A DNA stretch of 64,000 nucleotides from contig NZ_ARWB01000001.1 in assembly GCF_000384475.1 (NCBI RefSeq), positions 3,661,039 to 3,725,038 of the forward strand, given 5' to 3'. Shown piece after piece: positions 53,005 through 58,346 of the stretch. The notes beneath the pieces are model-generated. The model made no database searches and was not told the origin of the DNA. It was given only the letters and a program-made list of their open reading frames with translations. The position numbers were made by a program, and so were the translations under genes. Position 1 is the first letter of the stretch. The number at the start of each line of letters is the position of its first letter. The DNA comes from Methylopila sp. M107. GTDB lineage: Bacteria > Pseudomonadota > Alphaproteobacteria > Rhizobiales > Methylopilaceae.

Positions 53005-54048
53005 GTGGTCTGGGTGTTGCGCGGCAATCGCCAGGGCGACAATGCGATGATCGAGGCGGCCGCCGAAGCGAGCGGCCTCGCCCGCCGCTCCATCCAGCTG
53101 CGGTTCAATCCGCTCGGCGGTTTGCAGAACCTGTTTCCCGGCGGATCGCTGTTTAGCCTGACCGGCGCCTCCCGCGCGGCGCTGGCGCCGCCCTGGCCTT
53201 CGGTCGTGCTGACGTCCGGAAAGCGCGCCGTGCCGGCCGCGCTTTGGATCAAGCGCGCCTCCGGCGGACGGACGCGGCTCGTCCATGTCGGCCGTCCACA
53301 GGCGCCGCTGCGGTGGTTCGACCTCGTCGTCACCACGCCGCAATACCGGCTCCCGACGCGTTCGAATGTGATGATTTGCCGACTTCCAACTACCTCCGGA
53401 CGACACGCCTCGGCGGTCGCGTCGGATCTCGCGAGCATGCCGCGGCCGCGCCTGGTCGGGCTCGTCGGGGGCTCCGCCGCGCCGCAGACGCTCGACGCCG
53501 GCGCGGCGCGGGCCTTCGCGGCGGAAGCGCTGGCGCGGACCGCCGCGGCCGGCGGATCTCTGCTCGTCGCCACCTCGCCGCGAACCTCGCGCGCGGCGGG
53601 CGAGGCGCTGCGTCACGCGCTCACGAGCGCGGAAAGTGCGGTCAGCCTCTGCATCTACGGCGAGGGACCGAACAGGTATCGGGACTTCGCCGCAGCCGCT
53701 GACGGGTTCCTTGTCACCGACGACAGCGTTTCGATGGTCGTGGAAGCCGCCGCGACCGGTCGACCCGTCGCGCTCTTTCGATTGCCCGCGCGGCCCGGGC
53801 CTTTTCTGCGCGCGTTCGGCGCGCTGGACGCTGCGGCGTCCCGCAGCACGCTTGGAACGACGGCGCTCGAGGCTCTCACAGCATTGGGATTGATACGGTC
53901 GAACAGAGATATAGCCAGCTACATGCATGGCCTCGAATCTGACGGCCTGCTCGCCGGCGGCGACGCGCTCGCGACCCTCGCGGCGGACGAACTCACCGCG
54001 GTCGGACAGCGCGTGGCGTCGCTTGCGGCCGAGGTTCTCTGGGCATGA
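53005..54048 (+). CDS. ELM1-family (mitochondrial-fission ELM1-like) protein
   Basis: 347 residues. The homology begins with VVWVLRGNRQGDNAMIEAAAEASGL, so GTG 53005 is chosen; an ATG at 52825 would translate a repeat. The fold is glycosyltransferase-B-like. The second half contains RPRLVGLVGGSAAPQTL, LVATSPRTSRAAGEAL, ADGFLVTDDSVSMVVEAAATGRPVALF, the last like the donor-binding loop of GT-B enzymes. PF06258 proteins are mostly uncharacterised in bacteria; a sugar transferase role is inferred. First gene of a four-gene plus-strand unit. Confidence 0.82.
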   Translation: MVWVLRGNRQGDNAMIEAAAEASGLARRSIQLRFNPLGGLQNLFPGGSLFSLTGASRAALAPPWPSVVLTSGKRAVPAALWIKRASGGRTRLVHVGRPQAPLRWFDLVVTTPQYRLPTRSNVMICRLPTTSGRHASAVASDLASMPRPRLVGLVGGSAAPQTLDAGAARAFAAEALARTAAAGGSLLVATSPRTSRAAGEALRHALTSAESAVSLCIYGEGPNRYRDFAAAADGFLVTDDSVSMVVEAAATGRPVALFRLPARPGPFLRAFGALDAAASRSTLGTTALEALTALGLIRSNRDIASYMHGLESDGLLAGGDALATLAADELTAVGQRVASLAAEVLWA

Positions 54049-54113
54049 GCGCCTTCACGATTCCGTTGTCCGCCCGTTGCCGTCGAGTCACCGTGCGTCG
54101 CTAGTTTCGCGGC

Positions 54114-55157
54114 ATGCTTGACCGACCCGAATTCACTCCGGCGAAGATCCCCGAGGCTGACAAGGCCAGGCTCCGCATCATGCTGCTGGCGAAGCACGCC
54201 GACAGCGATGGAGCTCCCGATCCCGTGGACGGCAACCACGCGATCTATCATCACGAACTCCGTACGACGCTCGAATCGATCGGTCTCGACGTCGTCGCCG
54301 CGAACGACTTCTCGGCGATCGACAAGGCGTCGGGCGTCGACTTCGTGCTGACGCTTCTCAACCGCGCCGGCTTCCAGAACAGCGAGATGCTGGCCCCGCT
54401 GATGCTGACTCGCGGCGCCATCCCGTTCCTCGGCGCGAGCCCGATCCTGCGTGGCCTCGCCGACGACAAACACCTCGCCAAGGTCGTGGCCCGCGCGAGC
54501 GGCGTCCCGACGCCCGACTGGATGGTTTGCCGCATCGGACGGGCGATCGTCGACCCGACGTTCCGGGCCGAGCGGCTGGTCGTGAAACCCAACGCCTCTT
54601 CGGCGTCATGGGGCGTCAAGATTCTCGACAGCTGGGCGGAAGGCCGCCGCCACGCCGAGCACCTGCACATGCTTGGACATGACGTGCTGGTCGAGGCCTA
54701 CCATCCGCTGGTCGACGTCGCGGCCCCCGTCGTGGGCGGTGCAGGTCGCGAGCCCTGGTTCCTGCCGCCGATGTCCCACAAGCCCGAGATCGAGGGCGAG
54801 CTCAGGTCCTATGAGGAAAAGCGCGCGCTGACGCCGACGCTCGCCCGGGACGCCGACCCGCTGCATGTCGTCGACGATCCGATCCTGGTCGCGCGGCTGA
54901 AGACCCATTCGCGGGCGCTGTCGCGCGAACTCTGGCCGTTCGATTACGGCCGCTTCGAGTTCCGTTACGACGAGCGGAGCGGCGATCTCGCCTTCATGGA
55001 AGTGAACCTCTCCTGCAATCTCTGGTCCCGCAAGAGCGTGTCGCGTTCCGCCGCTTCGCTCGGCGTCGGCCATGCGGCGCTCGTCGAGTCGATCGTCGCC
55101 CACAGCCTGATGCGGCAGGGCGTCATCGCGCGCGACGCGGTCGAGATCGCCGCGTGA
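54114..55157 (+). CDS. ATP-grasp ligase, D-Ala-D-Ala-ligase-like
   Basis: 347 residues. ATP-grasp pattern: DDKHLAKVVARASGVPTPDW, RLVVKPNASSASWGVKILDSW (nucleotide Lys), ADPLHVVDDPILVARLKTHS and, near the end, FEFRYDERSGDLAFMEVNLSCNLWSRKS, with metal-binding Glu and Asn. It should join an amine to a carboxylate via acyl phosphate. Substrate unknown. ATG 54114, 65 bases after the ELM1 gene; its stop overlaps the next start (GTGA). Confidence 0.8.
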   Translation: MLDRPEFTPAKIPEADKARLRIMLLAKHADSDGAPDPVDGNHAIYHHELRTTLESIGLDVVAANDFSAIDKASGVDFVLTLLNRAGFQNSEMLAPLMLTRGAIPFLGASPILRGLADDKHLAKVVARASGVPTPDWMVCRIGRAIVDPTFRAERLVVKPNASSASWGVKILDSWAEGRRHAEHLHMLGHDVLVEAYHPLVDVAAPVVGGAGREPWFLPPMSHKPEIEGELRSYEEKRALTPTLARDADPLHVVDDPILVARLKTHSRALSRELWPFDYGRFEFRYDERSGDLAFMEVNLSCNLWSRKSVSRSAASLGVGHAALVESIVAHSLMRQGVIARDAVEIAA

Positions 55158-55972
55158 GCGCGATGGTCTCGGCGCTGGTTCTCGCCGGACAGCGGGAAGG
55201 CGCGATCGATCCGCTCGCGGAAGCCTCCGGCCTGAAGTTCAAGGCGCTGGCGCCGGTCGCCGGTCGGCCGATGGCGCTGCATGTGCTGGGAAACCTCGCT
55301 GCGAACGAGCGCGTCGGCGAGATCATCGTCTCGATCAACGAGGGCTCTGGGCTCGAAGCGCTTCCCGAAGTCGCGGCGCTGATCGCGGCAGGACGCCTGC
55401 GGGTCGTGGCGTCGCGGAAAAACCTTGTCGACAGCGTCCTGACCGCGCTCGACGGCGCGGCGTTCCCGGTTTTGATCACCACCGCCGACAACGTGCTGAT
55501 GTCGACCGGCACGATCGAGGAGATCGACCGGCGCGCGCGCGCGGAAAAAGCCGACGTCGCGGTCGCCATGGCGCGACGCGAGGACGTTCTATCCGTGCAT
55601 GCGCACGGTCAGCGCAAGTTCTACAAATGCGCCTGCGGCGAGTATTCGAACTGCAACGCCTACTGGATCGGGTCGCCGAAGGCTCTCGGCCCCGCGGAAC
55701 TGTTTCGCTCCGGCGGGCAGTTCGTCAAATATCCGATGCGGGTGGTGAACGCCTTCGGGCTCGCGGGCCTCGTCGAGATCGTCCGCTTCCGCTTCGGCCT
55801 CAGCCGGCTCGACGCCAGCTTCCGGCGGCTGTCGAAGCGTTTCGGGCTGACGATCCGGGCCGTCGTCGTGAGCGACGGCGCCGCCGCGATCGACGTGGAC
55901 CACGAGCGCAGCCGGCTGGTCGCGGAAGAGGTTCTGCTCGCGCGTCGCGCGCCTTCGGCCAAGGCCGCCTGA
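55154..55972 (+). CDS. MobA-like nucleotidyltransferase
   Basis: 272 residues. N-terminal ALVLAGQREGAIDPLAEASGLKFKALAPVAGRPM is a MobA/IspD-like nucleotide-binding loop with a degenerate GG..R motif and the conserved Lys. LITTADNVLMS carries the metal-binding Asp, as in NTP-transferases. KYPMRVVNAFGLAGLVEIVRFR follows. Likely activates a sugar, alcohol or acid as an NMP/CMP/GMP derivative. Start is GTG 55154, overlapping the ATP-grasp gene, so translation is coupled. Confidence 0.78.
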   Translation: MSAMVSALVLAGQREGAIDPLAEASGLKFKALAPVAGRPMALHVLGNLAANERVGEIIVSINEGSGLEALPEVAALIAAGRLRVVASRKNLVDSVLTALDGAAFPVLITTADNVLMSTGTIEEIDRRARAEKADVAVAMARREDVLSVHAHGQRKFYKCACGEYSNCNAYWIGSPKALGPAELFRSGGQFVKYPMRVVNAFGLAGLVEIVRFRFGLSRLDASFRRLSKRFGLTIRAVVVSDGAAAIDVDHERSRLVAEEVLLARRAPSAKAA

Positions 55973-55977
55973 ACCCG

Positions 55978-57147
55978 ATGCTGACGCTGCGCGTCATCCC
56001 GCCTCGGCTGCTTCGGCCATCGGCCGAGCCCGAGCCGCGAGACCTCACGGCGCAGTATTTCGACCTGCTCTGGCGCCACTGGTCGACCGCCGACCGGGCG
56101 ATGGCGATGGCGCTCGCCTGCGGCGAGGCCGCGCGCACCGCGTTCCGGCGTCGCGAGGCCTGGCGGCATGGGTGGAACGCGGGCGAAGAAAACCTGTTCG
56201 AGCGCGCCCCCGACCGCGCCGCCCATCTCGGCATGGCGGCCCGAAAGGGCATGCACCGGCTGATCAATCCCGGAGCCTATCCGCTTGAAGCGAATCCGCT
56301 GAAGAACAAGCGCCTGTTCGCCGAACGCTGCGCCGTTGCGGGACTGCGCGTCCCGGCGTGTTTTTCGGGCGCGGAGGAGCTTCAGGACTGGCTGGCGGGA
56401 GAGAACGCCGTAATCGCGAAGCCCAATTTCGCCTCCAAGGGAGCAGGGATCGCGGGTTATCGTCGCCAAGAAGACGGATGGGTCTCGGGCGAGCTTCGCC
56501 TCACGACGAATGAGACCGTCAAAAGGCTTCGCGCAGGCCTCGCCGCGGGCGGTTTGTTGCAGCGGATGTGCGACACGCATCCGGACCTCGCCGTCGTGTC
56601 GCCATGCGCGCTGCCGACGCTCAGGATCATGACGGCGGTGAACGAGGTCGGCGCGATCGAGGTTTGCGGGCTGGTCATCCGGCTGAACGGCGGAGGCTCG
56701 CGCGCGGTCGACAATTTCAACGCCGGCAACATCGCGGCCGGGGTCGACCGCGACGGGCGCATCCGTTTCGGACTTCGCCGGGTCGGGTCGCGGCTCGAAC
56801 GTTTCGACCGGCACCCCGCCACCGGCGCTCGGCTGCGCGGCGTTCGGGTTCCGGACCTTGCGGCCGCACAGGCGCTGGCGGTCGAGGCGCACGAGGCGTT
56901 TCGCGACGGTTTTGCGGTCGTCGGCTGGGACATCGGGCTGTCGAGCGATGGGCCCGTGCTCGTCGAGGGCAATTGGAACCCCGGGCCGGACATCCTTCAG
57001 CTCGTCCAGAACCACGGCGTCGGCGACGGCCGGCTCGGCGAGATCTATCGCTTCCATCTCGCGCAGTTGCCCGCCGAAACATGGCGCGCCGCGCGGCCGG
57101 TCGAGCGCGACATCCGGCGGGCCGAGGGCGCCGAGCTCGCGGCGTAG
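55978..57147 (+). CDS. Sugar-transfer-type ATP-grasp protein
   Basis: 389 residues. An N-terminal helical part, then ATP-grasp: NPLKNKRLFAERCAVAGLRVPACF, ENAVIAKPNFASKGAGIAGY (Lys and glycine loop), LQRMCDTHPDLAVVSPCALPTLRIMTAVN, NFNAGNIAAGVD, VVGWDIGLSSDGPVLVEGNWNPGPDILQ (metal ligands). This fits the sugar-transfer-associated ATP-grasp family (PF14397). ATG 55978, five bases after the nucleotidyltransferase stop. Its ligase substrate is unknown. Confidence 0.78.
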   Translation: MLTLRVIPPRLLRPSAEPEPRDLTAQYFDLLWRHWSTADRAMAMALACGEAARTAFRRREAWRHGWNAGEENLFERAPDRAAHLGMAARKGMHRLINPGAYPLEANPLKNKRLFAERCAVAGLRVPACFSGAEELQDWLAGENAVIAKPNFASKGAGIAGYRRQEDGWVSGELRLTTNETVKRLRAGLAAGGLLQRMCDTHPDLAVVSPCALPTLRIMTAVNEVGAIEVCGLVIRLNGGGSRAVDNFNAGNIAAGVDRDGRIRFGLRRVGSRLERFDRHPATGARLRGVRVPDLAAAQALAVEAHEAFRDGFAVVGWDIGLSSDGPVLVEGNWNPGPDILQLVQNHGVGDGRLGEIYRFHLAQLPAETWRAARPVERDIRRAEGAELAA

Positions 57148-57161
57148 CCGGGCGGGCGCTC

Positions 57162-58184
57162 CTACTGCAGCCCTACGGGATCGACCGTGCCCGACGAGCA
57201 CCCCCGATCGGTCGGCGAGGCGCCGGCGATCAGGGTCGAGAGCGACGCGTCGTCTCCGACATGGCCGCTGAGGCCGATCGTCAGCTCGACGATGATCCGG
57301 CGATCGCCGTCGCGCTTGCAGGCGACCCGCACCCGATCTCCGGCTCCGGCCCCAAAGCCCTGATCGAAGGCGGCCCGGATGGCGTCCGCGCCGATCTCGC
57401 GACCGATATTGTCGGCGAACAGCTTTTGCACCGGCGACGCGTTGAGCTGACCGATCAGCGCGACCTCGCGGCGGAAATAGGCGTCGGCGGAGTTTTCGAA
57501 GAAGCAGGTCCCGTGCACCGTCCATTCATGGCGCTGCAGGTGCGACGCGACGCCGGGCATCGCCTTGGCGAGCGCGGCGCGCGTTTCGGGCGTGACGTCG
57601 GGCTCAGGCAGGTCTTCCCAGCGATGGGCCTTGTCGGCGGCGATGTCCTGCTTCGGAACGCCGCAATAGGCGTTGCTGCGCGGCTGCGGCCAGAGGCCGT
57701 GCAGGGAGAAGTGGGTCGCGTCGTATCGATCCGCCGTCTGCGAGACGCATTCGGTCTTGTCCGGCAGTCCCTCGCAGAACGCCGACAGCCAGCTGACCGC
57801 GAACACATAGGAGGGGCCGCCATCCCGGCTTGCGCCCGGCGACGTTGGAGAATTCGGACGCACGGCCGGTCTCGCGCCGTCCGGCGCTCCCGCGCCGTCG
57901 GAACCTGCGACGTCGCCGCAGTCGACCGTCACCCAGCGCTCCTGGGGGGTCGCGCCGTCGACGCTCACCCGATAATGCGTGGCGTCCGGTCTGTTCTTGG
58001 CGAGCAGGCGGTAGCTTCGGCCGGGCCCGAGCCGGACGTCGCCCGGGTTCGTCGCCTTTCGGATCGACTGCAGCGCCGGGCAGTCCTGCCGGGCGAGCAA
58101 CTGGCCCTGAAGCGGAACCTCCGCCCGCGCCGCGGCCGCGCCGAGGACAAAGAGGCCTGCCGCCAACACTGACCAGAGACGCAT
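57162..58184 (-). CDS. Ribonuclease T2 family secreted nuclease
   Basis: 340 residues. Signal peptide (LWSVLAAGLFVLGAAAARAE), an N-terminal region of about 120 residues with RLGPGRSYRLLAKNRPDATHYRV, then RNase T2: CAS1 FSLHGLWPQ (His162) and CAS2 RHEWTVHGTC (His219, Glu220, His224). Many Cys fit disulfides. A periplasmic/secreted nuclease for RNA scavenging. The extra N-terminal domain is not in the E. coli enzyme. ATG 58184 behind GGGAGGT. Converges with the ATP-grasp operon. Confidence 0.9.
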   Translation of the reverse strand: MRLWSVLAAGLFVLGAAAARAEVPLQGQLLARQDCPALQSIRKATNPGDVRLGPGRSYRLLAKNRPDATHYRVSVDGATPQERWVTVDCGDVAGSDGAGAPDGARPAVRPNSPTSPGASRDGGPSYVFAVSWLSAFCEGLPDKTECVSQTADRYDATHFSLHGLWPQPRSNAYCGVPKQDIAADKAHRWEDLPEPDVTPETRAALAKAMPGVASHLQRHEWTVHGTCFFENSADAYFRREVALIGQLNASPVQKLFADNIGREIGADAIRAAFDQGFGAGAGDRVRVACKRDGDRRIIVELTIGLSGHVGDDASLSTLIAGASPTDRGCSSGTVDPVGLQ

Positions 58185-58346
58185 GATCGGACCTCCCGAG
58201 GCGACGCCGTTATGGCTCCCGAGGCGTGGCGGGACGAGCCATACTTCCGGCGCGCCGCGCTCGGCGCCCTTGCGGCGCGAGCCCAAGACGCGTATATCGC
58301 GGTCCATTCACTGACATCGTCGATTGGTTCAGATCGAACCTTTCGA

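Follow-up and report, generated by a model that had tools for sequence, protein, structure and literature searches.

What does a bacterium build with two different ATP-grasp enzymes, a nucleotidyltransferase and an ELM1-like protein encoded side by side? The question is raised by four plus-strand genes in a 64,000-nucleotide stretch of the Methylopila sp. M107 genome (positions 3,661,039 to 3,725,038 of contig NZ_ARWB01000001.1; this whole stretch is called the window below). They encode ELM1 (53005..54048, GT-B-like, PF06258), a Ddl-like ATP-grasp protein (54114..55157) predicted to have the fold of D-alanine--D-alanine ligase (Ddl), a MobA/CofC-like nucleotidyltransferase (NTP, 55154..55972) and GSP, an ATPgrasp_ST protein of family PF14397 (55978..57147); the last three genes are coupled by a 4-base overlap (Ddl-like/NTP) and a 5-base gap (NTP/GSP). 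The original prediction, made from the letters alone, had described these four genes, which proved to be real and correctly placed. Our sequence comparisons establish, as a new finding, that the genome's own sphingolipid cluster contains paralogs of both the window NTP and the window ELM1. Because relatives of two of that cluster's genes are here joined to two amino-acid-ligase-like ATP-grasps, a head-group module is the simplest account, and we tentatively propose, at somewhat less than an even chance, that these genes form an accessory module, probably spread by horizontal transfer, whose enzymes would synthesise a second type of head group and install it on an outer-membrane (glyco)lipid, most likely one built on ceramide.

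Paralogs of sphingolipid-cluster genes

The host genome is a single 4.45 Mb contig (C1), and its sphingolipid cluster lies at about 2930-2945 kb (loci L095 and L101). The cluster encodes serine palmitoyltransferase (Spt; 677.9 bits against a cut-off of 500), an acyl carrier protein, LptF/G-like permeases, a CerS-like protein, a lipid-kinase-like protein, ELM1, a CDP-alcohol-transferase homolog and an NTP paralog whose gene is directly behind the CerS-like gene, with a GNAT protein and two LptF/LptG permeases encoded immediately upstream of it. The window NTP matches PF12804 at 42.4 bits, and the paralog is recovered at E 1.7e-43 when the genome is searched with a profile built from Ddl-linked NTPs, the next matches standing at about 1e-4. 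The set is labelled Ddl-linked because several members of its 23-row alignment (the window plus 22 of 54 open-reading-frame matches) come from Ddl-like/NTP pairs rather than from full trios of Ddl-like, NTP and PF14397 genes.

The place of the paralog resembles that of CC_1153 in the Caulobacter ceramide-phosphoglycerate cluster, a likeness by gene position: CC_1153, a CofC-like nucleotidyltransferase, follows cerS and is needed for CPG2, and the sections consulted of the same paper assign it no activity (PMC11324152). Several ceramide diphosphoglycerate steps, that of CC_1153 included, stand without an assigned activity in the consulted parts of PMC11324152 and PMC12275187, which also report that Caulobacter is viable without lipopolysaccharide with the support of ceramide diphosphoglycerate. 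CC_1152/CpgD (CCNA_01210) is a CTP:phosphoglycerate cytidylyltransferase that makes CDP-glycerate (PMC12275187, PMC13228409). The window NTP belongs to the same sequence family as the NTPs in the CC_1153 position; it falls outside the clade of cluster NTPs and is not next to cerS, lptF2 or lptG2. Unlike CC_1153, it lies outside the sphingolipid cluster, with two ATP-grasps and ELM1 as neighbours.

In the NTP tree (57 rows after removal of identical rows) the Ddl-linked NTPs form a clade of their own (96/97) and, together with the f42-type NTPs, a branch of 33 rows that is split from the others at 100/99. Rows from Hyphomicrobiales fall among the sphingomonad rows, as sister to L008 (96/87), a placement which suggests that the trio NTP was moved between lineages by transfer. 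CpgD was represented by the protein at its position on a Roseomonas plasmid; this protein is not close to the NTP, its branch having a length of 8.46 changes per column. Ddl-linked and other NTPs have their nucleotide and metal motifs in common, and K30, TTAD (109-112) and DVD (247-249) are shared by window-type and cluster NTPs. The Ddl-linked proteins are differently fixed, or nearly so, within residues 149-200 (H149, Q153, NCN 166-168, F184, GGQF 187-190 and R196), with NCN instead of the GCN of cluster NTPs and F184 instead of W; this group comparison omits L133 and L134 and counts one row of another genome (L139) in group f42. The NTPs in the CC_1153 position that were compared, cluster proteins other than CC_1153 itself, share K30, TTAD and DVD with the window protein and differ from it at NCN, GGQF and F184. 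We read these patterns as the same activation chemistry directed at a different acceptor. A zinc ribbon in the NTP was considered and rejected, the window CxC not being conserved and only C167 (of NCN) being invariant in the 23-row alignment. The closest solved structure is TTHA0179, on which no paper was found in the literature searched. Among the loci of family f42, G039 has two NTPs lying about 1 kb from each other.

Among 385 genomes of the class, the NTP family (E<=1e-25) was found in 40 and Spt (E<=1e-100) in 49; Spt is present in 39 of the 40 NTP genomes and in 10 of the 345 without NTP (Fisher p 7e-43, kinship ignored), and 22 family codes contain both. The NTP genome without Spt at this cut-off is G334, whose NTP is surrounded by LptF/G, lipid-kinase-like and CerS-like genes and by an Spt-like gene that is divergent (33% identity). 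NTP relatives also occur in 16 plasmid records, five of which were opened: LptF/LptG and CerS-like genes lie near the NTP in all five, and Spt lies within the stretch in two. When Ddl-like loci were sampled, in a manner not independent of kinship, Spt exceeded its cut-off in 12 of 13 genomes, the miss being L006/G389; all three core genes are carried by 11 of the 13, and L020 and L051 have the Ddl-like/NTP pair only.

Within the host's genus, to which G431 (Methylopila turkensis, locus L007) also belongs, the trio's Ddl-like gene is present in four of eight genomes; each of these four has two NTP copies and each of the other four has one. Spt was found in seven of the eight. The miss, G563, has the trio, and its contig begins within the sphingolipid cluster (L150), at the gene which adjoins Spt in relatives, so the absence is read as an assembly gap. 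In G325, G397 and G612, all three carrying the Ddl-like gene, the sole NTP at E<=1e-12 is of the Ddl-linked type, which might therefore stand in for the cluster NTP there as well; Spt was tested for, and seen, in G325 and G397.

ELM1 gives a parallel picture. The window protein matches PF06258 at 153.7 bits (gathering score 27), and in all nine Hyphomicrobiales-type genomes in which both were found (G000, G431, G608, G471, G505, G535, G586, G387 and G391) the distance between ELM1 and Spt is 4.4-7.9 kb. An extra ELM1 accompanies the trio in six of six Hyphomicrobiales-type trio genomes (G000, G431, G563, G608, G387 and G391). Of the two types of cluster ELM1, one groups in the tree with the trio copies, as does the ELM1 from a Pseudomonas plasmid cluster (99/97). 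That plasmid's sphingolipid cluster encodes a 709-amino-acid ELM1 protein (L120:14643-16771) whose N-terminal half is similar to a separate gene that has no Pfam match and precedes ELM1 in G431 (L152:1196-2497). Protein 2903 of Acinetobacter baumannii is likewise described as ELM1-like and differs from the window ELM1 in its locus; the mutant has a truncated lipooligosaccharide core, for which the protein is needed, and the function of bacterial ELM1 proteins is termed ill-defined in the consulted part of that source (PMC10936431).

The conserved trio and its ATP-grasp proteins

A protein scan gave 125 relatives of the Ddl-like gene, of which the best 80, from Methylopila-like Hyphomicrobiales, many Sphingomonadales and Eilatimonas, were retained for locus counts. 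The conserved core consists of three genes, for the Ddl-like ATP-grasp, the NTP and the PF14397 ATP-grasp: the NTP follows the Ddl-like gene on the same strand in 48 of the 80 loci, all three stand in order in 30, and L042 has the three in a different order. Joint occurrence among relatives, on which the original prediction had staked its case, is therefore borne out for the trio, whereas ELM1 joins it in only 7 of the 80 loci, every one Hyphomicrobiales-type, and is inverted in L004 and L019; among these loci the four genes are seen together only there. The ELM1-bearing loci occupy differing chromosomal sites, beside rimP-nusA-like genes in L002 and L003 and beside a thrS-like gene in L005 (gene names by eye). 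In the window a minus-strand gene (57162-58307), RNase T2-like by eye, separates the unit from rimP/nusA-like genes; it is not so placed in L002 and L003. The NTP and PF14397 genes of the Chenggangzhangella chromosome (L004:11035-13045) are each split over two frames, by decay or sequencing error. At nine loci, among them L057:8391-9881, a gene for a protein of about 500 amino acids (cluster 25), PLP (pyridoxal phosphate)-enzyme-like by eye and with no credible Pfam match, is divergent from the Ddl-like gene.

Every one of the 30 ordered trios has one envelope-type neighbour, ELM1 being counted as such: ELM1 in 7, a downstream GT4 glycosyltransferase in 21 (20 by clustering, L036 by tblastn) and, in place of GT4, a Polysacc_synt (PF01943, Wzx-like) flippase in 2, L008 and L040. 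The flippase also occurs in 6 further loci carrying the Ddl-like gene. The lack of an adjacent transporter had been taken to favour a small cofactor; the GT4 and flippase genes beside the trio in relatives leave that argument unsupported and point to the envelope. The flippases of L008 and L040 are homologous (40-46% identity) to one beside the cluster NTP of G334 (L166), and that of L040 also to flippases beside the NTPs of Sphingobium L140 and L143 (42-43%) and weakly L161 (28%). All four of these NTPs fall outside the Ddl-linked clade; L140 and L143 are cluster-type by tree rather than by position, as their stretches do not extend far enough to reveal CerS or Spt.

The Ddl-like protein has the predicted ATP-grasp fold of Ddl. 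The C-terminal motif EVNTxPG is a defining feature of the D-alanine--D-alanine ligase family; the window protein reads EVNLSCNLW where solved Ddls read EVNTxPGM. E296 and N298 are invariant in 26 of 26 aligned rows (the window plus 25 of 85 open-reading-frame matches), and the PG portion is substituted. With this altered motif and a TIGR01205 score of 44.6 bits against a cut-off of 245.65, a role as D-alanine--D-alanine ligase was rejected; a canonical Ddl is present elsewhere in the host genome. GSP, aligned with 13 of 37 open-reading-frame matches, reaches 124.4 bits against PF14397 (gathering score 31.4) and 30.9 bits against the glutamate-ligase-like TIGR02291, below the cut-off of 314.2. 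Its predicted fold is RimK-like, and the amino-acid ligases RimK and LysX/ArgX are among the closest known systems. A ribosomal peptide precursor (PF14407, E 0.074) was dismissed as a chance match.

Distant relatives of the Ddl-like protein appear in other surroundings. In L096 (10104-13245) and L097 (3521-6664) two such genes, surrounded by sensor-like genes, flank a conserved gene with the look of an ABC substrate-binding protein (by eye), and neither genome has an Spt match; on rhizobial plasmids including pNGR234a (L121:7719-8729 and L122:7779-8786) they adjoin CapA or peptide-transport genes.

Proposed product and competing explanations

With a nucleotidyltransferase encoded next to two ATP-grasps of predicted amino-acid-ligase-like fold, a nucleotide-activated, amide-bearing building block is a plausible product, and to this extent the original interpretation, partly supported as a whole, stands. 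The substrates and product of the proposed head-group module are inferred, the NTP step following the example of CpgD, by which a phospho-acid is activated to become a sphingolipid head group (PMC12275187, PMC13228409). By this analogy, the NTP would link a small phosphorylated acid to a nucleotide, in the manner of CpgD acting on phosphoglycerate or CofC on phospholactate. With ATP, the Ddl-like and RimK-like enzymes would join amino-acid-like units to a carboxylate of that group; a GT-B enzyme (ELM1 here, GT4 in Sphingobium) would transfer either a sugar or the activated group onto the lipid; and the product would then be exported. More specifically, but rather unlikely in our estimate, the product may be a new class of sphingolipid, in which the phospho-acid head group of a ceramide bears an amino acid or peptide. 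Its makers would be a re-specialised version of the sphingolipid NTP and two peptide-ligase-type ATP-grasps, and gene transfer would have spread them between Sphingomonadales and a clade of Methylopila-like Hyphomicrobiales.

Several observations weigh against a lipid head group. No locus read shows the trio inside a sphingolipid cluster; four of the eight congeners have Spt and no trio, and 10 of the 49 Spt genomes lack the NTP family. The Fisher value takes no account of kinship, and sphingomonads as a group are sphingolipid makers. The NTP of G244 lies inside the Ddl-linked clade, and no Ddl-like gene was found in that genome at E<=1e-20. Nine genomes with distant Ddl-like relatives have no Spt over the cut-off (G043, G288, G366, G379, G427, G468, G532, G583 and G602), the first four additionally lacking an NTP at E<=1e-25, so the Ddl-like family extends beyond this system. 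The Sphingobium genomes G393 and G394 possess Spt and the trio and have no ELM1 at E<=1e-8, the trio partner there being GT4. PF01943 flippases are usually polysaccharide exporters, and a flippase like that of L040 was found in none of the eight genomes of the genus; one of this type is thus not needed for the window system.

The main rival takes up part of this evidence. It holds that the trio supplies a surface polysaccharide or undecaprenyl-linked glycan with a unit that is nucleotide-activated and bears an amino acid, a unit which GT4 or ELM1 would attach and a Wzx-type flippase export, the tie to sphingolipids being one of NTP ancestry only. GT4 and PF01943 flippases are common in glycan systems, and here GT4 is directly downstream of most ordered trios and the flippase stands beside others; NTP relatives in family f42 (L162, L163, L167 and L168) have polysaccharide-type genes around them, with nucleotide-sugar-dehydrogenase-like and glycosyltransferase-like genes alongside (by eye), and the Acinetobacter ELM1-like protein is needed for the lipooligosaccharide core (PMC10936431). 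Against this, the NTP family was not seen apart from Spt, or from the Spt-like cluster of G334, in the 385 genomes; relatives of ELM1 and of the flippases also occur close to Spt or next to NTPs that fall outside the Ddl-linked clade; and no polymerase or sugar-synthesis gene was recognised by eye beside the window trio. We regard a glycan product as doubtful, though a serious contender.

A soluble product, either a small molecule or a cofactor tail like that of F420, is distinctly improbable. In F420 synthesis CofC activates a phospho-hydroxyacid and an ATP-grasp caps with glutamate, and the host NTP paralog does match TIGR03552 CofC, at 30.5 bits and far below the cut-off of 105, as GSP, with its RimK-like predicted fold, falls short of TIGR02291; the glycosyltransferase-like or flippase neighbours at all 30 trio loci argue against it. 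Adjacency of unrelated genes by chance, for which one might cite the absence of ELM1 from sphingomonad loci and its inversion in two others, is already disfavoured by conservation, the trio being ordered in records from both Hyphomicrobiales-type bacteria and Sphingomonadales and ELM1 being kept beside it at different chromosomal sites, and we give it hardly any weight.

Within the literature searched by title, abstract start or term match, the unit is not in print: no paper naming ATPgrasp_ST or PF14397 was found, none of the papers joining ATP-grasp and sphingolipid describes the unit, as judged by title or start of abstract, and the searched text of a Novosphingobium glycosphingolipid paper contains neither 'ATP-grasp' nor 'ligase' nor 'nucleotidyltransferase' (PMC13318209).

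For bacterial ELM1 proteins, the finding provides a recurrent place near Spt, in nine of nine Hyphomicrobiales-type genomes and not in the two Sphingobium genomes. For the NTP family, a clade held in a tight operon with two soluble-looking ATP-grasps offers a small enzyme set with which its acceptor may be found.

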